Shown here piece by piece: positions 49,113 to 56,377 of a DNA stretch of 64,000 nt (position 1 is its first letter; each line of letters starts with the position of its first letter). The notes beneath the pieces were generated by a model. The model was not told where the DNA came from and did no database searches. It saw only the letters and a list, made by a program, of their open reading frames with translations. The stretch covers positions 2,677,174 through 2,741,173 of the forward strand of contig CP151667.1 of NCBI GenBank assembly GCA_038400315.1, written 5' to 3'. The position numbers and the translations under genes were made by a program. Source of the stretch: Isosphaeraceae bacterium EP7 (GTDB lineage: Bacteria > Planctomycetota > Planctomycetia > Isosphaerales > Isosphaeraceae).

Positions 49113-49973
49113 ATGGTCTCCAGTGCCAAGAGCCGGATCCCCGAGATCGTGCGGAAGCACGCGGATTCGCTGATCGAGGAGTGGATCAAGGGGCAACTGG
49201 CCGGGGGCCGGATCAACGAGGCGGAGCTGCGGCAGCAGTGCCGGACCTTCCTCGGGCAGTTGCTCGAAGGGACCGAGGCGGGGGGCGACTTCGAGGACGT
49301 CTCCGGCCAAGCCTGGGACGGGATGCGCGAGCTGCTCGCGGAGGTCTCCGAGTCCAGGAGCCTGAAGGGGTTCAGCCCGTCGGAGACGGCGACGTTCGTC
49401 TTCTCGTTCAAGCGCCCCTTCTTCACCCGGCTGAGGCGCGAGCTGGCCAAGGACTCCGACGTGCTGGCCGAGGAGACCTGGCGGGCCACAACCCTGCTCG
49501 ACCAGCTCGGCCTGTTCACCACCGAGGCATACCAGACGACGCGCGAGGCGGTGATCAACCGCCAGCAGCAGGAGATGCTCGAGCTGTCGACGCCCGTGGT
49601 GAAGCTCTGGGACGGCATCCTGGCCTTGCCGATCATCGGCACCCTGGACAGCGCCCGGACTCAGGTCGTGATGGAGACGCTGCTCCAGACGATCGTGGCC
49701 CACTCGGCGGAGATCGCCATCATCGACATCACCGGGGTTCCGACGGTGGACACCCTGGTGGCGCAGCACCTGATCAAGACGGTGACGGCGGCCCGCCTGA
49801 TGGGGGCCGACTGCATCATCAGCGGGATCAGGCCGCAGATCGCGCAGACGATCGTCCACCTTGGCGTCGACCTGACCGGCGTGACGACCAAGGCCACGAT
49901 GGCCGACGCGCTGAGCCTGGCACTGAAGCGTCGCGGACTCTCGGTCAGCCGTGCCGCCGCCGCAGCCAAATGA
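49113..49973 (+). CDS. rsbR: RsbR-type stressosome protein
   Basis: ATG 49113 was chosen for GGAGG 8 bases upstream. The 286-residue protein has an N-terminal helical RsbRD-like domain (IVRKHADSLIEEWIKGQLAG...FLGQLLEGTEAG, about residues 5-150). The C-terminal STAS domain begins EMLELSTPVVKLWDGILALP, with IGTLDSARTQ and IIDITGVPTVDT, whose Thr residues correspond to the phosphorylated positions in Bacillus RsbR. It is expected to build the stressosome core with RsbS and be phosphorylated by RsbT. It is first in a six-gene operon (gap of 16 bases to rsbS). Confidence 0.9.
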   Translation: MVSSAKSRIPEIVRKHADSLIEEWIKGQLAGGRINEAELRQQCRTFLGQLLEGTEAGGDFEDVSGQAWDGMRELLAEVSESRSLKGFSPSETATFVFSFKRPFFTRLRRELAKDSDVLAEETWRATTLLDQLGLFTTEAYQTTREAVINRQQQEMLELSTPVVKLWDGILALPIIGTLDSARTQVVMETLLQTIVAHSAEIAIIDITGVPTVDTLVAQHLIKTVTAARLMGADCIISGIRPQIAQTIVHLGVDLTGVTTKATMADALSLALKRRGLSVSRAAAAAK

Positions 49974-49989
49974 CGAATCGGCCGGGATA

Positions 49990-50403
49990 ATGGGGGGAGC
50001 ACTCTCGGTGGAACGGATCCCGATCCTGCGGATGGGCAACCTGCTGCTCGTGACCATCCAGGTTGACATGCACGACCGCCTGGCCCTGACGCTCCAGGAC
50101 GACCTGATGGCCAGCATCAGCGTCAACGGGGCCAGGGGTGTGATCATCGACATCTCGGCGATGGACATGGTCGACTCATTTATCGGTCGGATGATCGCCG
50201 ACATCGCCGGGATGGCCCGGATCCTCGACGCCGAGACGGTGGTGGTGGGGATGCAGCCTGCGGTGGCGATCACGCTGGTCGAGCTGGGGCTCTCGCTCGA
50301 CGGCGTGCGGACCGCGCTCGACCTCGAACGGGGGATGACGTACCTGCGGGAGGCGCTCGCGGTCGACGAGCCGGAGGCCGCCGATGGCGTCGGTGAAGAC
50401 TGA
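49990..50403 (+). CDS. rsbS: RsbS-type stressosome STAS protein
   Basis: This 137-residue single STAS-domain protein has VERIPILRMGNLLLVTIQVD, DRLALTLQDDLMASI and VIIDISAMDMVDSFIGRMIA. The Ser at about position 63 (DMVDSFIGR) matches the RsbT phosphorylation site of Bacillus RsbS. The C-terminus has an acidic tail. It starts 16 bases after rsbR, and its last 20 bases overlap the start of rsbT, indicating translational coupling. Function is as antagonist that holds RsbT until phosphorylated. Confidence 0.93.
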   Translation: MGGALSVERIPILRMGNLLLVTIQVDMHDRLALTLQDDLMASISVNGARGVIIDISAMDMVDSFIGRMIADIAGMARILDAETVVVGMQPAVAITLVELGLSLDGVRTALDLERGMTYLREALAVDEPEAADGVGED

Positions 50404-50788
50404 AACGCTGCCGATCGTCGCCGAGTCGGACGTCGTCCTGGTCCGGCATCTGGTGCGGAAGTGGGCCTCCGAGCTGAGCCTGAGCCTGGTGGAGCTGACC
50501 AAGGTCGTCACCGCGGCCAGCGAGTTGGCGCGGAATGTGCTTGTCCATGGCGGCGGGGGTCGGATGCGGGCCGAGATGCTCCAGGAGGGGCTCCGACGTG
50601 GATTGCGGCTCCATTTCGAGGACGAGGGCAAGGGCATTGCCGACCTCGAACTGGCCCTGCGCGACGGGTACACCACCGGCGGCGGCCTGGGCCTCGGCCT
50701 GGGCGGGTCGAAGCGGCTGGTCAGCGACTTCCAGATCGTTTCCCGGGTCGGCGAGGGGACTCGTGTTACGATCACCAAATGGAAGTGA
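50384..50788 (+). CDS. rsbT: RsbT-type serine/threonine kinase
   Basis: This 134-residue GHKL-fold kinase shows the N box in ASELARNVLVHGGGGRMRAE, the G1 box in HFEDEGKGIADLELALRDG and the G2 region GGGLGLGLGGSKRLVSDFQI. This is the full set of ATP-binding motifs of the RsbT/RsbW family. It should phosphorylate RsbR and RsbS and, once released, activate a downstream phosphatase. It overlaps rsbS by 20 bases and is overlapped by the next gene by 26 bases. Confidence 0.93.
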   Translation: MASVKTETLPIVAESDVVLVRHLVRKWASELSLSLVELTKVVTAASELARNVLVHGGGGRMRAEMLQEGLRRGLRLHFEDEGKGIADLELALRDGYTTGGGLGLGLGGSKRLVSDFQIVSRVGEGTRVTITKWK

Positions 50789-51812
50789 GCTCTGTCCCTC
50801 CTGGGGCATCGAGGTCACAGAGTCGAGCCAGGTGGGCGAGGCCAGGCGCAGGGCCTCGGCCATGGCGGCCAACCTCGGCTTCAGCCCGACGGGGCAGGGG
50901 CAGGTGGCCCTGGCCGCGACCGAGGCGGGCACCAACCTGATCAAGCACGCCGGCGGCGGCCGGCTGCTACTCTGCCCCATCGACGACGGCGAGGGGTACG
51001 TGGCGCTGGACCTGCTGGCGCTGGACAAGGGGCCCGGCATGGCCGACCCCGACCGCTGCCTGCGCGACGGGTTCTCGACGGCCGGGACGCCGGGGACTGG
51101 CCTGGGGGCGATCGCGCGGCTCTCCGACTCGTTCGAGCTGTCGTCGGCCCCCGGCCTGGGCACGGCTCTGCGGGCCCGGTTCCGGCCGGAGCGGTCGAGG
51201 CCCGAATCGCCGACGCAGTCCTCCCCTCGGCTGGAGATCGGCGCGGTACACGTGCCCAAGCCGCCGGAGATCGCCTGCGGCGACGCCTGGGCGGTCGAGC
51301 ACGGCCCGACGTCGAGCCGGATCCTGGTGGTCGACGGCCTGGGCCACGGCCCGCTGGCCGCCGACGCCTCGCATGCGGCCGTTCGGGCCTTCCGCCAGTC
51401 TCCCTGGGTGCCGCTGCCCGACCTGATCTGGGCGCTGCACGCGGCCCTGCGAAGCACGCGCGGGGCGGCCCTGGCCGTCGCCGAGCTGGACCTCGAGGCG
51501 GGGCTGCTGCGATACGCGGGGGTGGGCAACATCGCCGGCACCATCTTCCTGAACAGCACGTCGCACGGGCTGGTCTCGCACAACGGGACGGCCGGGCACG
51601 AGGTTCGCAAGGTCCAGGTGTTCGAGTACCCGTTCGCGCCCGGCTCGCTGCTGGTGATGCACTCCGACGGGCTCTCAATCCCCAGGCGGCTGGACCAGAT
51701 GCCCGGCCTGGCGTCGCGGTCCTGCCCGTTGATTGCCGGTGTGCTGTACCGCGACCTCGGCAGAGGCCGCGACGACGCCACGGTGCTGGCCGTGCGGGGG
51801 GGACCGCCTTGA
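50763..51812 (+). CDS. Fused RsbW-like ATPase and PP2C/SpoIIE phosphatase (RsbX-like)
   Basis: GTG 50763 was selected: it has GAGGGG four bases upstream and keeps the conserved start WGIEVTESSQVGEARRRA. Residues about 15-135 form a GHKL ATPase domain (LAATEAGTNLIKHAGGGRLL, LDKGPGMADPDRCL, GTGLGAI). Residues about 150-349 form a PP2C-type phosphatase: GDAWAVEH, ILVVDGLGHGPLAADAS, the RYAGVGNIAG block and RDDATVLAV with metal-binding Asp residues. In Bacillus RsbX resets the stressosome by dephosphorylating RsbR/RsbS. The N-terminal ATPase fusion is unusual relative to that scheme. It overlaps both neighbours. Confidence 0.85.
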   Translation: MLRSPNGSELCPSWGIEVTESSQVGEARRRASAMAANLGFSPTGQGQVALAATEAGTNLIKHAGGGRLLLCPIDDGEGYVALDLLALDKGPGMADPDRCLRDGFSTAGTPGTGLGAIARLSDSFELSSAPGLGTALRARFRPERSRPESPTQSSPRLEIGAVHVPKPPEIACGDAWAVEHGPTSSRILVVDGLGHGPLAADASHAAVRAFRQSPWVPLPDLIWALHAALRSTRGAALAVAELDLEAGLLRYAGVGNIAGTIFLNSTSHGLVSHNGTAGHEVRKVQVFEYPFAPGSLLVMHSDGLSIPRRLDQMPGLASRSCPLIAGVLYRDLGRGRDDATVLAVRGGPP

Positions 51813-54037
51813 GATACCCGATCATGACGGTGGACGTCCGGCTGGAGCAGGACGTGGTCATGGCCCGTCAGAGAGCCAGGCAACTGGCCGGGATGCTCGG
51901 CTTCGACGCCGGCGACCAGACGAGGATCGCCACGGCCCTCTCGGAGATCGCTCGCAACGCCTTCCGCTATGCCGGCGGCGGCCGGGTGGAGTTCTCCGCC
52001 GAGGCGGGCGACACGCCGACGTTCCACATCAGGGTGGTCGACCGCGGCCCCGGCTTCGACCACGTCGGCCCCGTGCTGGACGGCACTTATCAGTCGACGA
52101 CCGGGCTGGGCCTGGGCATCCCCGGCGCTCGCCGGCTGATGGGCCAGTTCCGGATCAGCTCGCAGGCGGGCTCGGGCACCACCGTCGAGATGTCCAAGCC
52201 CTTCCCACCCAAGGCACCCCTGCCTACCGCGGCGCAAGTCAACCGGGTCGTCGAGGAGATGACCAGGCGCGGCCCGCAAAGCCCGATCGAGGAACTCCAG
52301 CAGCAGAACCATGAGCTGCTGCGCACCCTGGATGAACTGCGGTCGCATCAGGATGAGTTGGCCAAGACCCACGCCGACCTGGTCGAGCATGAGGCCTCGC
52401 TGGGCCGCCTCAATCGCGAGCTGGAGGACACCAACCGGGGCGTGGTGGCCCTCTACGCCGAGCTGGACGAGAAGGCGGAGTTCTTGCGACGAGCGTCGCA
52501 GATGAAGTCGCGATTCCTGTCCAACATGGGCCACGAGTTCCGCACCCCCCTGAACGCGATCACGGGGCTCTCCGGCCTGCTGCTCGACCGGCTCGACGGC
52601 GAGCTCTCCGCCGAGCAGGAGAAGCAGGTCCGGCTGATCCGCGGCGCCTCCGAGGAGCTGACCGAGCTGGTCAATGACCTGCTGGACCTGGCCAAGGTCG
52701 AGGCCGGCAAGGTCGTCGTCCGGGCGCTCGAGTTCGACGCCGGCACGCTCTTCGCCGCGCTGCGGGGAATGCTCAAGCCGCTCCAGGCGAGCAACCCGGC
52801 GGTGGCCCTGGTCTTCGACGAGCCCGACGGGCCGCTGATGATGGAGACCGACGAGAGCAAGCTGGCGCAGATCCTGCGCAACTTCATCTCCAACGCATTG
52901 AAGTTCACCGAGCAGGGCGAGGTGCGGGTCTCGGCCCACGTGCAGCCCTGCGGCGACCTCGTCGAGTTCCGCGTGGCCGACACCGGCATCGGCATCGCCG
53001 CGCACGACTGCGAGCGGGTCTTCGAGGACTTCACCCAGGTCGAAGGGCCGCGGCAGAGGCACGTCAAGGGGACCGGGCTGGGCCTCCCCCTGGTCCGGCA
53101 GCTGGCCGGCCTGCTGGGGGGCCGGGTCGACCTGAAGAGCGAGCTCGGCGTTGGCTCGACCTTCTCGGCAACCCTGCCCAGGGTCTATCGAGGGCCGGCC
53201 GAGGTTTGCAGCGTGGCGGGCCCGGTGCCCGAGATCGACCCGTCGAGGCGGCCGGTGCTGCTCGTCGAGGACAACCCCGAGATGATCTTCATCTACGAGC
53301 GGTACCTGGACGGGACCCCCTATCAGGCCGTGCCCGCGCGGACGATCGCCGCGGCCAGGCACGCGCTGGACCGGTTCCGCGCGGCGGCGATTATCCTCGA
53401 CGTGCTGCTCCAGGAGGAGAGCACCTGGAACTTCATGGACGAGCTGAAGCAGGACGAGTCGACCCGCGACATCCCCATCCTGGTGGTGACGCTGGTGGAG
53501 AACGAGGCCAAGGCCAGGTCGCTTGGAGCCGACGTCTTCCACACCAAGCCGATCGAGCGGACCTGGCTGCTGGAGCAGCTGACGCTCCTCGCCCCGGCCG
53601 TGGATAATCCGCCGGCGGAGGCCCCGACGCGGCCGACCGGCGGAGAATTGGCCCTCATCGTCGACGATAGCGAGGCGTCGCGGTATATGCTGAAGGAGCT
53701 GCTCCGCGGATCGGGCCTCGGCGACGAGCCGGCCGAGGCGGAAACCGGGGCCGAGGGGCTGAGGCTGGCCGGGCTGAGGCCGCCGGCGGTCGTCTTCCTC
53801 GACCTGGAGCTGCCCGACATGGGGGGCCTGGACGTGCTGAAGGCGCTCCGGGCCGCCGCGGCGACCCGGCACCTCCCGGTCATCATCCGCACGTCGAAGG
53901 TGCTGGATGGGGCCGAGCGGAATCGACTGATCGAGGCGGGGGCCGCGGCCGTCCTGTCGAAGCAGACGGCGTCGGTCGATGCGGTCCGGGCCGAGATCAA
54001 TGACGCCCTCCGGGGCGTCGGGCTGGGGGCTCGGTAG
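51809..54037 (+). CDS. Hybrid histidine kinase with RsbT/RsbW-like N-terminal ATPase and two receiver domains
   Basis: The start is TTG 51809, which overlaps the preceding TGA and has GGGGGGA upstream; ATG 51824 is the alternative. Domains: RsbW/T-like ATPase 1-130 (ALSEIARNAFRYAGGGRVEF, VDRGPGFDHVGP, GLGLGIPGARRL), coiled coil about 155-240, HisKA with His242 in NMGHEFRTPLNAI, HATPase with FISNALKFTEQG and GTGLGLPLVRQLAGLLGG. Receiver 1 has Asp531 and Lys580; receiver 2 has Asp665 and Lys718. There is no membrane segment or sensor, so the input may come from the stressosome partners. The last receiver has no output domain. Confidence 0.88.
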   Translation: MRYPIMTVDVRLEQDVVMARQRARQLAGMLGFDAGDQTRIATALSEIARNAFRYAGGGRVEFSAEAGDTPTFHIRVVDRGPGFDHVGPVLDGTYQSTTGLGLGIPGARRLMGQFRISSQAGSGTTVEMSKPFPPKAPLPTAAQVNRVVEEMTRRGPQSPIEELQQQNHELLRTLDELRSHQDELAKTHADLVEHEASLGRLNRELEDTNRGVVALYAELDEKAEFLRRASQMKSRFLSNMGHEFRTPLNAITGLSGLLLDRLDGELSAEQEKQVRLIRGASEELTELVNDLLDLAKVEAGKVVVRALEFDAGTLFAALRGMLKPLQASNPAVALVFDEPDGPLMMETDESKLAQILRNFISNALKFTEQGEVRVSAHVQPCGDLVEFRVADTGIGIAAHDCERVFEDFTQVEGPRQRHVKGTGLGLPLVRQLAGLLGGRVDLKSELGVGSTFSATLPRVYRGPAEVCSVAGPVPEIDPSRRPVLLVEDNPEMIFIYERYLDGTPYQAVPARTIAAARHALDRFRAAAIILDVLLQEESTWNFMDELKQDESTRDIPILVVTLVENEAKARSLGADVFHTKPIERTWLLEQLTLLAPAVDNPPAEAPTRPTGGELALIVDDSEASRYMLKELLRGSGLGDEPAEAETGAEGLRLAGLRPPAVVFLDLELPDMGGLDVLKALRAAAATRHLPVIIRTSKVLDGAERNRLIEAGAAAVLSKQTASVDAVRAEINDALRGVGLGAR

Positions 54038-54055
54038 CTGCCGGGGAACGCCGCG

Positions 54056-56377
54056 ATGCATGAGAAACCGACCGTGATCCTGGTGGTCGACGACAAGGAG
54101 GGGACGCGCTACACCGTCTGCCGCCTGTTGCGCCGTGAGGGGTACGAGATCGTCGAGGCGACCGGCGGCGAGCAGGCCCTGAAGCTCGCCCGGGACAGGC
54201 CCGACCTCATCATCCTGGACATCAAGCTGCCCGACCTGGACGGCTACGAGGTCTGCCGCAGGCTGAAGGCGGCGCCGGAGACGGCGTCCATCCCGGTGCT
54301 CCACCTCTCGGCCTACATGGTCGAGAGCGAGAGCCGGTCGACGGGCCTGGAGAGCGGCGCCGACGGCTACCTGACCCACCCGGTCGAGCCGCGCGAGCTG
54401 GCCGCCCAGGTGCGTGCCCTGCTGCGCATCCGCCGGGCCGAGCGCCAGGCCCGCGACCAGGAGGAGCTCTTCCGGGTCACCCTCTCCAGCATCGGCGACG
54501 CGGTGATCTCCACCGACAACCAGGGCCGGATCCGGTTCCTCAACCCGGTGGCCGCCAGCCTCTGCGGCTGGGACGCGGCCGAGGCCGTCGGCCGCCCCCT
54601 GATCGAGGTCTTCGACATCGTCGACGAGACATCCGGCGAGCCGGCCCTCGACCCGGTCGCCCGGGTCCTGCGCGACGGGCGGGTGACCGGCCTGGTCAAT
54701 CACACCATCCTCATTTCCAGGGACGGGACTCAACGACCGATCGAGGACAGCGCCTCGCCGATCCGCGGCGACGACGGCACCCCCCTGGGCGTCGTGCTCG
54801 TCTTCCGCGACATCACCGAGAGGCGGAAGGCCGACGCCGACGTCAGGTCGGCGCGCGAGCGGCTGCGGCTGACGATGGAGAGCGTCCGCGAGTACGCCAT
54901 CTTCACCATGGACATGGCCGGCGTCGTCGACAGCTGGAACACGGGGGCCGAGCTGGTCTTCGGCTACTCCAAAGACCAGATCATCGGGCAGGACGGCCGG
55001 ATCCTCTGGACGCCCGAGGACCGGGCCGTGGGGGCGCCCGACTGGGAGATGGCCACGGCCGTGGCCGACGGCCAGGCACAGGACGAGCGCTGGCACCTGA
55101 AACGCGACGGCGGCCGGTTCTTCGCCAGCGGCATCCTCACGATCGTCCGCGACCACGCCGGCCGGCCGATGGGATACACCAAGGTGGCCCGCGACGTCAC
55201 CGCCCGCAAGCTGGCCGACGAGGCGCTGAGGGACCAGGACCGCAGGAAGAACGAGTTCCTGGCCATGCTGGCCCACGAGCTGCGCAACCCACTCGCACCC
55301 ATCTCCAACGCCTTGCGCATCATCCGCATCGAGGATCCCGCCGCCTACGCCTCGGCGAGGCAGGCCTGGGAGATGATCGAGCGTCAGGTCGAGCACATGG
55401 TCCGGCTCGTCGACGACCTGCTCGACGTCAGCCGGATCTCGCACGGCCAGATCAAGCTCCAGCCGGCCGACGTCGACCTGGCGGCGGTGCTCTTTCGCGC
55501 CGTGGAGAGCAGCCGCCCGCTGATCGACGCCCGCCGGCACGACCTGGTCGTCCGCCTGGCCGACCGCCCGCTGCCGCTCTATGCCGACCCCGTCCGCACG
55601 GCGCAGGTCTTCTGGAACCTGCTGAACAACGCGGCGAAGTACACGCCCGAGGGGGGCCGCATCACGCTGAGCGCCGAGGTCGTCGAGCCCGGACCGGGGG
55701 GCGTCAGCGCCGGCGTGGTGGTCCGCGTGCGGGACACCGGCATGGGCATCCCCCACGAGATGCTCCCCAGGGTCTTCGACCTGTTCACCCAGGTGGAGCA
55801 CTCCATCGACCGCTCCGAAGGGGGACTGGGCATCGGCCTGACCCTGGTCCGGCGCCTCACCGAGATGCAGGGGGGCACCGTCGACGCCACGAGCCCCGGG
55901 CCCGGCCTGGGCAGCGAGTTCAGCGTCCGCCTGCCGCTGTCCGCCAGGCCGACCTCGGCCTCGACGCCCTCGGCCAACCACGCACCGGAGCCCGACGCGC
56001 CCTCGCCGTCGAGGCGCATCCTGGTCGTCGACGACATCCGCGACTCGGCCGACAGCCTGTCGAAGCTCCTGCGGCTCTTCGGCAACGACGTGCGGACCTC
56101 CTACGAAGGGCAGCAGGCGATCATGACCGCCGAAACCTACATGCCCGACGTGGTCCTGCTCGACCTGGGCCTGCCCGGGATGAACGGCTACGAGGTGGCC
56201 GCCGGCCTGCGCAAGATCCCGTCGCTGGCCGGCGCCACCCTGGTCGCCCTGACCGGGTTCGGCACCGAGGAAGACCGCCGCCAGACTGAGGCCGCCGGCT
56301 TCGACCACCACCTGGTCAAGCCCGTGGACATCGACGCATTGCGCACGCTGCTCGACCGGGTGCCGGGCCGCGACTGA
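54056..56377 (+). CDS. Hybrid histidine kinase: receiver-PAS-PAS-HisKA-HATPase-receiver
   Basis: The 773-residue protein starts 18 bases after the previous gene. Domains: receiver 5-118 with Asp55 (LIILDIKLPDLDGYEVCRRL); PAS about 138-258 (AVISTDNQGRIRFLNPVAAS); PAS about 268-388 with a PAC-type end (MGYTKVARDVTARKLADEAL); HisKA with His407 in MLAHELRNPLAPISNAL; HATPase with NLLNNAAKYTPEGG and SEGGLGIGLTLVRRL; C-terminal receiver with Asp703 (VVLLDLGLPGMNGYEVAAGL). The protein is cytosolic. The N-terminal receiver makes it a candidate phosphorelay target of the kinase in front. It ends the operon. Confidence 0.92.
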   Translation: MHEKPTVILVVDDKEGTRYTVCRLLRREGYEIVEATGGEQALKLARDRPDLIILDIKLPDLDGYEVCRRLKAAPETASIPVLHLSAYMVESESRSTGLESGADGYLTHPVEPRELAAQVRALLRIRRAERQARDQEELFRVTLSSIGDAVISTDNQGRIRFLNPVAASLCGWDAAEAVGRPLIEVFDIVDETSGEPALDPVARVLRDGRVTGLVNHTILISRDGTQRPIEDSASPIRGDDGTPLGVVLVFRDITERRKADADVRSARERLRLTMESVREYAIFTMDMAGVVDSWNTGAELVFGYSKDQIIGQDGRILWTPEDRAVGAPDWEMATAVADGQAQDERWHLKRDGGRFFASGILTIVRDHAGRPMGYTKVARDVTARKLADEALRDQDRRKNEFLAMLAHELRNPLAPISNALRIIRIEDPAAYASARQAWEMIERQVEHMVRLVDDLLDVSRISHGQIKLQPADVDLAAVLFRAVESSRPLIDARRHDLVVRLADRPLPLYADPVRTAQVFWNLLNNAAKYTPEGGRITLSAEVVEPGPGGVSAGVVVRVRDTGMGIPHEMLPRVFDLFTQVEHSIDRSEGGLGIGLTLVRRLTEMQGGTVDATSPGPGLGSEFSVRLPLSARPTSASTPSANHAPEPDAPSPSRRILVVDDIRDSADSLSKLLRLFGNDVRTSYEGQQAIMTAETYMPDVVLLDLGLPGMNGYEVAAGLRKIPSLAGATLVALTGFGTEEDRRQTEAAGFDHHLVKPVDIDALRTLLDRVPGRD

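Follow-up and report, generated by a model that had tools for sequence, protein, structure and literature searches.

The stretch of DNA analysed here (the window) comprises 64,000 nucleotides of the planctomycete Isosphaeraceae bacterium EP7 (contig CP151667.1, positions 2,677,174 to 2,741,173 of the forward strand), and contains at 49113-56377 six near-contiguous or overlapping plus-strand genes, namely rsbR, rsbS, rsbT, X, H1 and H2, which join a stressosome module of the RsbR-RsbS-RsbT (RST) type to an RsbX-like phosphatase and two hybrid histidine kinases. The subject of this analysis is the N-terminal RsbT-like domain of the kinase H1, which might be the element through which the stressosome holds and switches its output. 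The genes and features are as follows:

49113..49973, + strand: RsbR, with Pfam RsbRD_N sensor and STAS domains; phospho-site equivalents Thr214 and Thr246
49990..50403, + strand: RsbS, a single Pfam STAS domain; phospho-site equivalent Ser63
50384..50788, + strand: RsbT, a single GHKL serine/threonine kinase domain (Pfam HATPase_c_2); solved relative SpoIIAB
50763..51812, + strand: X, RsbX-like, with Pfam HATPase_c_2 and SpoIIE/PP2C domains; best start GTG 50763
about 50838-51179, + strand: RsbT-like ATPase domain of X (Pfam)
about 51315-51794, + strand: PP2C/SpoIIE phosphatase domain of X, matched by PDB RsbX and one SpoIIE-family chain
51824..54037, + strand: H1, a hybrid histidine kinase starting at ATG 51824 (Pfam HATPase_c_2, HisKA, HATPase_c, REC and REC)
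51851..52198, + strand: RsbT-like input domain of H1 (HATPase_c_2, E 5.6e-15), preceding a long helix and then HisKA
52283..52495, + strand: linker of H1 (residues 154-224), predicted as a single continuous helix from the input domain to HisKA
54056..56377, + strand: H2, a REC-PAS-PAS-HisKA-HATPase_c-REC hybrid kinase (Pfam REC, PAS, HisKA, HATPase_c and REC)

The defining domains of the six proteins were recovered with Pfam E-values of about 1e-7 to 1e-43, and the solved relatives of RsbR include stressosome RsbR chains. The start of RsbS is ambiguous, with alternatives such as GTG 50008; rsbT overlaps rsbS by 20 bases and X overlaps rsbT by 26 bases, with the start of X lying within the 3' end of rsbT, upstream of the obvious ATPase domain of X. 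The first four genes display the hallmarks of an RST(X) module, viz., an RsbR with two Thr sites, an RsbS with a Ser, an RsbT with intact N-box and G-box residues, and an adjoining RsbX-type PP2C with conserved metal-site Asp residues, which departs from a plain RsbX-type phosphatase in possessing the extra ATPase domain. Both H1 and H2 have the HisKA His, HATPase_c domain and REC Asp of hybrid histidine kinases. The operon lacks RsbV, RsbW and a sigma factor (the search for sigma factors being confined to the operon), as well as a DNA-binding regulator, and RsbU_N gave no match above the Pfam cut-off in the operon or the whole genome (best E 0.59).

A search of 45 genomes from the window's family gave RsbT matches (E 1e-10 or better) in 13, one of them the window's own. 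The full order R-S-T-X-H1-H2 recurs in 11 of these 13 loci, with the remaining two (L058 and L067) being cut by contig ends and otherwise agreeing; this recurrence makes the order more than a chance arrangement. An H1 with a full RsbT-like domain is present in all 13 modules. A scan of genome contigs with the whole of H1 recovered 11 loci, all of which aligned from residue 193 onward, over the kinase core or receivers and not the input domain. The observations of an initial annotation made from the window alone are confirmed by these gene calls, domain matches and synteny: it had described a six-gene operon of stressosome and hybrid kinases, with two-component enzymes (here the conserved downstream genes) in place of a sigma factor, anti-sigma protein or RsbU. 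The prospect it had raised of the kinases being separate units fails on the cross-genome comparison, where they are syntenic with the module.

An AlphaFold2 model of H1 residues 1-225, built from an alignment of only the window's three paralogues (mean predicted local distance difference test score, pLDDT, 83.4; predicted template modelling score 0.53), contains a GHKL domain followed by one helix at 154-224. Ten-residue means of pLDDT in the input domain are 84-91, except for 64-79 in three of the 13 blocks, and those of the linker helix are 88-95 from residue 161, with 64 just before it. In a fold comparison with VIA-align, the modelled domain matched SpoIIAB (Z 17.9), RsbW (15.4), usfx (14.7), SiaB (12.2) and LvrC (11.9), with the first histidine-kinase ATPase (Z 9.7) ranking below the STAS kinases and LvrC. 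A sequence search of solved structures with the same domain gave only weak matches, to RetS-type kinases.

We also computed a tree of 174 GHKL domains and one Bacillus subtilis sequence. Here, 53 of the 58 X copies group without a contaminant (support 0.876), and the five outsiders are RsbT-PP2C fusions from loci where a separate rsbT was not found. The H1-type clade (support 0.987) unites 31 of the 32 H-class domains with one stray (T_L111), the outsider (L160) again being an RsbT-PP2C fusion, while RsbT itself does not form one clade (best split 54/84). The two fused copies in the operon hence differ, with the X copy, which keeps its ATP site, and the H1 copy belonging to separate clades, so that their divergence predates the arrival of the cassette in these phyla. 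The predicted fold and the sequence thus assign the H1 input domain to the SpoIIAB/RsbW/RsbT class, in agreement with the initial annotation, which had seen in it an RsbT/W-like ATPase. The fold Z-scores and the tree led us to reject the alternative that the domain is a second ATPase of the histidine-kinase type.

Residue conservation was counted with one sequence per locus, at bit cut-offs of 100 for RsbR, 80 for RsbS and 250 for H1 and H2. The sites of the stressosome core are strongly conserved: the equivalents of RsbR Thr214 and Thr246 are Thr or Ser in 81/82 and 80/82 loci, and that of RsbS Ser63 is Ser in 57/60 and Thr in the other three; the STAS-side Asp is present in 81/82 RsbR proteins and the second Asp in 49/60 RsbS proteins. 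The phospho-acceptor His237 of H1 is kept in 38/38, and His407 and the second-receiver Asp703 of H2 in 16/16. GHKL residues are given in B. subtilis numbering, with RsbT-PP2C fusions counted as RsbT class and the set of 31 H1 proteins excluding L058 (H1 cut by the contig, unclassified) and L160. The ATP-site Asp78 is present in 90/90 RsbT and 53/53 X copies and in 18/31 H1 copies; Asn49 in 89/90, 53/53 and 26/31, respectively; the helix-1 Arg19 in 70/90, 51/53 and 31/31; and Arg23 of the same helix in 73/90, 8/53 and 24/31. Asp78 has been lost chiefly within the window's family, where only the window's own H1 retains it among 12 aligned; of the other 11, nine have Glu, one has Gln and one has Ala. 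Four members of the set of 31 (L051, L052, L055 and L095) have lost several ATP-site residues.

The Arg19 equivalent in the window's H1 is Arg15, which is common to the window's RsbT and X, and SpoIIAB Arg20 aligns with Arg21 of the window's RsbT. The helix-1 residues Arg19 and Arg22 of SypE are predicted to bond Asp20 and Asp22 of the STAS protein SypA, with the equivalents of these Asp residues being known binding residues (PMC10120452). RsbT R19, R23 and N24 are also implicated in RsbU binding, with R19 in the RsbU interface (PMC12143880). These sequence patterns make partner binding a better conserved property of the H1 domain than catalysis, and favour, without proving, a docking role over a catalytic one.

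To gauge the spread of such domains, we surveyed stressosome outputs in 398 genomes of Pseudomonadota, the phylum of a Bradyrhizobium genome (G461, locus L046), of which 38 have RsbT, reading one locus per genome. The output N-termini, several of whose start points were set by hand to skip long upstream reading frames, were scored with a profile of RsbT alone (57 sequences in total, with E-values for that set). A full RsbT-like domain fronts eight of the 38 outputs (L135, L136, L140, L144-L147 and L150), and a degenerate copy, in register at E 0.01 or better and devoid of the ATP site, fronts ten (L138, L152, L155, L157, L159, L161, L163, L164, L167 and L169, with L152, L157 and L164 near the threshold at E 0.009-0.01). 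Two further outputs are borderline (L156 and L158; E about 0.7 with the RsbT-only profile), this pair scoring 6.3% against RsbT, 58.6% against the degenerate copies and 76.2% against the combined profile in profile-profile comparison. RsbU_N is found on five (L148, L151, L162 and L165 above the Pfam cut-off and L153 below it, E 0.014), and the remaining 13 (L132-L134, L137, L139, L141-L143, L149, L154, L160, L166 and L168) show no detectable input domain. Of the outputs scanned for RsbU_N as well as the RsbT-like domain, none was found to combine the two in a single protein. In L163, L164, L166, L167, L169 and also L160, a separate rsbT was not found, and an RsbT-like domain is instead fused to the RsbX-type PP2C.

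In the window's own phylum, RsbT was matched in 21 of 392 genomes, and the 17 modules read (those of G146, G306, G335 and G362 not being among them) comprise four with a full domain, six with a degenerate copy, one with RsbU_N and six with none found, of which four (G159, G161, G240 and G267) have an output gene assigned without confidence. The enzymatic regions behind the degenerate copies, where scanned, are GGDEF, PAS-GGDEF-EAL, histidine kinase-REC and PP2C. Profile-profile comparison with RsbT gave 96.2% for the GGDEF group, 97.4% for the PP2C group of the window's phylum, 96.4% for the Streptomyces copy, 98.9% for L114/L138 and 94.1% for the L163 type, with all controls (reversed, RsbU_N and PAS) below 2%. 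The degenerate copies, counted with the borderline L156 and L158, retain Arg19 in 21/21 and Asn49 in 0/21. In the tree (58 columns, long branches), L138 and L102 are nearest to H1 copies and the other 19 to RsbT at a large distance, so that their descent from H1-type domains is not settled by these sequences. The D1 kinases of Vibrio, whose linker is alike, were rejected as carriers of degenerate domains: the six-sequence group reaches only 18.2% against RsbT, L117/L154 alone score 0.6% with RsbT and 3.4% with the degenerate profile, L166 scores 0.1% and 0.4%, and none is significant with the RsbT-only profile, so that this N-terminus is at most suggestive of such a domain.

Conversely, a search of the same 398 genomes with the H1 domain gave matches in 37, of which 36 are RsbT-positive, the other (G540) being a 160-aa open reading frame. 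Nine open reading frames with at least 400 aa matched the H1 type over nearly its full length, and eight of them lie within RST modules. The ninth (L181:4018-6521) is a lone H1-type kinase, divergently oriented from an orphan rsbR paralogue and about 3.2 Mb from the RST module of its own genome. The R-S-T-X-H1 core also occurs on plasmids of Deinococcus radiodurans (MP1), Deinococcus sp., Sphingomonas aliaeris, Caballeronia sp. (genes read from open reading frames, as the record has no gene table, with the H1 domain matched by the profile built here and not by Pfam) and Phaeobacter porticola, where the output kinase belongs to the HisKA_2/HWE type. On two Paraburkholderia plasmids the order is S-T-X-H1, with rsbR not intact in the stretch read, and in Streptomyces sp. 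Mg1 a PP2C protein with a degenerate copy occupies the H1 position. On a Halobaculum plasmid, the kinase that comes after R-S-T-X lacks the RsbT-like domain, and so do the kinases on the Xanthomonas and Variovorax plasmids read.

Taking the gene order, domains, residues, X and H1 clades, Asp loss in close relatives, and full or degenerate copies on other outputs as the observed basis, we propose, with a probability of roughly 0.5, that this operon encodes an RST stressosome to which the output enzyme is docked directly, with an RsbT-derived domain replacing the RsbT-to-RsbU_N step of the sigma-B pathways. From that basis we infer a course running from STAS binding and release on phosphorylation, through the direction of control, helix transmission and phosphorelay order, to the final target. 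RsbR and RsbS would form the STAS core; under stress, RsbT would phosphorylate RsbS Ser63 and RsbR Thr214 and Thr246 and then leave the core, while X, recruited there through the RsbT-like domain that it carries, would act as the reset phosphatase. The third RsbT-derived domain, that of H1, would bind the same STAS surface via helix 1 (Arg15), and would be mainly a plug rather than a kinase. Once the STAS sites are phosphorylated and RsbT is freed, the H1 domain would likewise be freed or re-seated. The long helix would carry this change to the HisKA dimer and so set both autophosphorylation and the transfer of phosphate to the receivers of H1 and H2. Direct docking is supported by the linkage of the H1 domain to these modules (13/13 in the family, 8/9 of the large reading frames in Pseudomonadota), by its forming one clade with a SpoIIAB-type predicted fold in which the helix-1 Arg is universal and the catalytic Asp is not (31/31 versus 18/31), by the copies lacking an ATP site on 10/38 Pseudomonadota outputs and in 6/17 modules of the window's phylum, and by RsbU_N and the RsbT-like domain never sharing a scanned output.

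Several observations weigh against direct docking. The window's own H1 input domain retains every ATP-site residue checked, and H1 copies outside its family keep Asp78 in 17/19, which means that these domains may bind ATP or be active kinases. Since the loss is thus confined mostly to the window's family, docking rests on the closest relatives and the degenerate copies, and we lowered its probability from about 0.55 to 0.50. The presence of RsbT R19 in the RsbU interface implies that retention of this Arg marks a partner-binding face and not STAS binding specifically, and its count in the degenerate set is partly a product of selection, as the members were found by profile match. Furthermore, the 13 Pseudomonadota outputs with no detected domain, eight of which are short kinases 50-56% identical to the H1 kinase core, together with the output of L062, from another family in the same class as the window, which lacks the RsbT-like domain, indicate that it is not required in every module; nor could the Vibrio D1, L117/L154 and L166 N-termini be added to its carriers.

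The initial annotation had suggested that the histidine kinases are controlled by a kinase activity that STAS partners switch. This interpretation is supported in part: RsbT/W-like domains do front X and H1, the predicted H1 fold is that of STAS kinases, the catalytic residues are present after alignment in the window's proteins, and the ATP-site Asp is kept in most H1 copies outside the family, a distribution that led us to raise our estimate for an active H1 kinase from slight to somewhat less so. It nevertheless remains improbable, because the H1 copies of the other family members have replaced an Asp that RsbT and X always keep, the four degraded H1 copies have lost several ATP-site residues, the degenerate relatives lack the ATP site, and the helix-1 Arg is retained throughout, all of which makes the kinase wording doubtful. 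Equally improbable in our estimation is a GHKL heterodimer of the H1 domain with free RsbT, whereby RsbT released under stress would activate H1 as it does RsbU. RsbT is the known messenger, RsbW and SpoIIAB form GHKL dimers (PMC10120452), and Arg23 is shared by H1 and RsbT but mostly absent from X; however, the lone H1-type kinase of L181 adjoins an orphan rsbR and not the rsbT found elsewhere in its genome, and an interaction of VvRsbT with VvD1 was not detected in Vibrio (PMC9237108). The latter result would fit a partner other than RsbT, with the limit that VvD1-type N-termini are not established as this domain. Less likely still is that the H1 domain is a functionless relic, in an operon that merely co-expresses stressosome and phosphorelay or couples them by the coiled linker alone: the outputs devoid of the domain, including short kinases that start with a similar linker, are compatible with such dispensability, but its retention in every family H1, the invariant helix-1 Arg, and the presence of degenerate copies before four kinds of enzymes argue against it.

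The arrangement proposed here has precedents in part. Stressosomes with two-component outputs (PMC9237108, PMC10014275), RsbU_N input modules (PMC12143880) and the STAS-kinase fusion SypE (PMC10120452) are already known. The RSTX system of Vibrio vulnificus with its VvD1-VvD2 two-component output shares with the window the order RsbR-S-T-X followed by a histidine kinase gene and the lack of a sigma factor and of RsbU_N on the output; it differs in its globin-type RsbR and second output of the cyclic di-GMP type, whereas the window has an RsbRD_N-type RsbR, an X with its own ATPase domain and an H1 with a full RsbT-like domain (PMC9237108, PMC10014275). The outputs fronted by RsbU_N (Bacillus RsbU, Moorella MtG and RsbU_N histidine kinases) are alike in having an exchangeable N-terminal input module beside RST, but RsbU_N is a dimerisation domain of four helices to which RsbT binds, while the window's module is derived from RsbT itself (PMC12143880). 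The Vibrio fischeri SypE (serine kinase-REC-PP2C) likewise fuses a STAS-binding SpoIIAB/RsbW-type domain to signalling domains, but acts on the STAS protein SypA and has no histidine kinase part (PMC10120452). SpoIIAB, RsbW and SiaB (PDB 1l0o, 6m37, 6kko) have the same fold as that modelled for the H1 input domain, but are stand-alone kinases rather than histidine-kinase input domains. In the literature searched, which did not cover the reviews by Pane-Farre and colleagues (2005, 2017), we found no description of stressosome outputs fronted by an input domain that derives from RsbT and often lacks the ATP site.

Going beyond this operon, we raise the tentative possibility that RsbT-derived input domains, ranging from full copies to "pseudo-RsbT" ones lacking the ATP site, let many stressosomes with no RsbU_N partners hold and switch their outputs directly, in the manner of a plug, a generalisation that the split in Asp78 retention moved from an even chance to somewhat below one. 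If so, the outputs would span HisKA and HWE histidine kinases, PP2C phosphatases, diguanylate cyclases and GGDEF-EAL proteins, the stressosome would both scaffold the output and regulate it allosterically and directly, without RsbT as a diffusible messenger, and paralogues of RsbT would have been repurposed from enzymes into docking parts across several kinds of output enzymes. How the signal exits stressosomes lacking sigma-B and RsbU is left open in print: in one study, RsbU_N was undetected on most of the downstream proteins considered, and the idea that RsbT phosphorylates them transiently was no more than a suggestion (PMC9237108). An RsbT-derived docking domain would supply a specific explanation, open to experiment, in many of these cases, with Deinococcus radiodurans (plasmid MP1) and Phaeobacter being workable hosts.

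Some minor observations emerged alongside. Two haloarchaeal plasmids (L103 and L119) have RsbR-S-T-X sets followed by PAS/kinase genes. A record labelled as a Stenotrophomonas rhizophila plasmid (L105, CP065518.1) has an apparent rsbT-rsbU-rsbW-sigB set of the Bacillales type, possibly reflecting contamination or mislabelling. Elsewhere in the window's genome are two stronger HATPase_c_2 matches (G000:C1, about 6974412 and 5150845; L173 and L174), which may belong to a further partner-switching system. Receivers usually have a conserved Lys at a position where the first REC domain of H2 instead carries a His (residue 108, window 54377-54379, in the motif LTHPVE).

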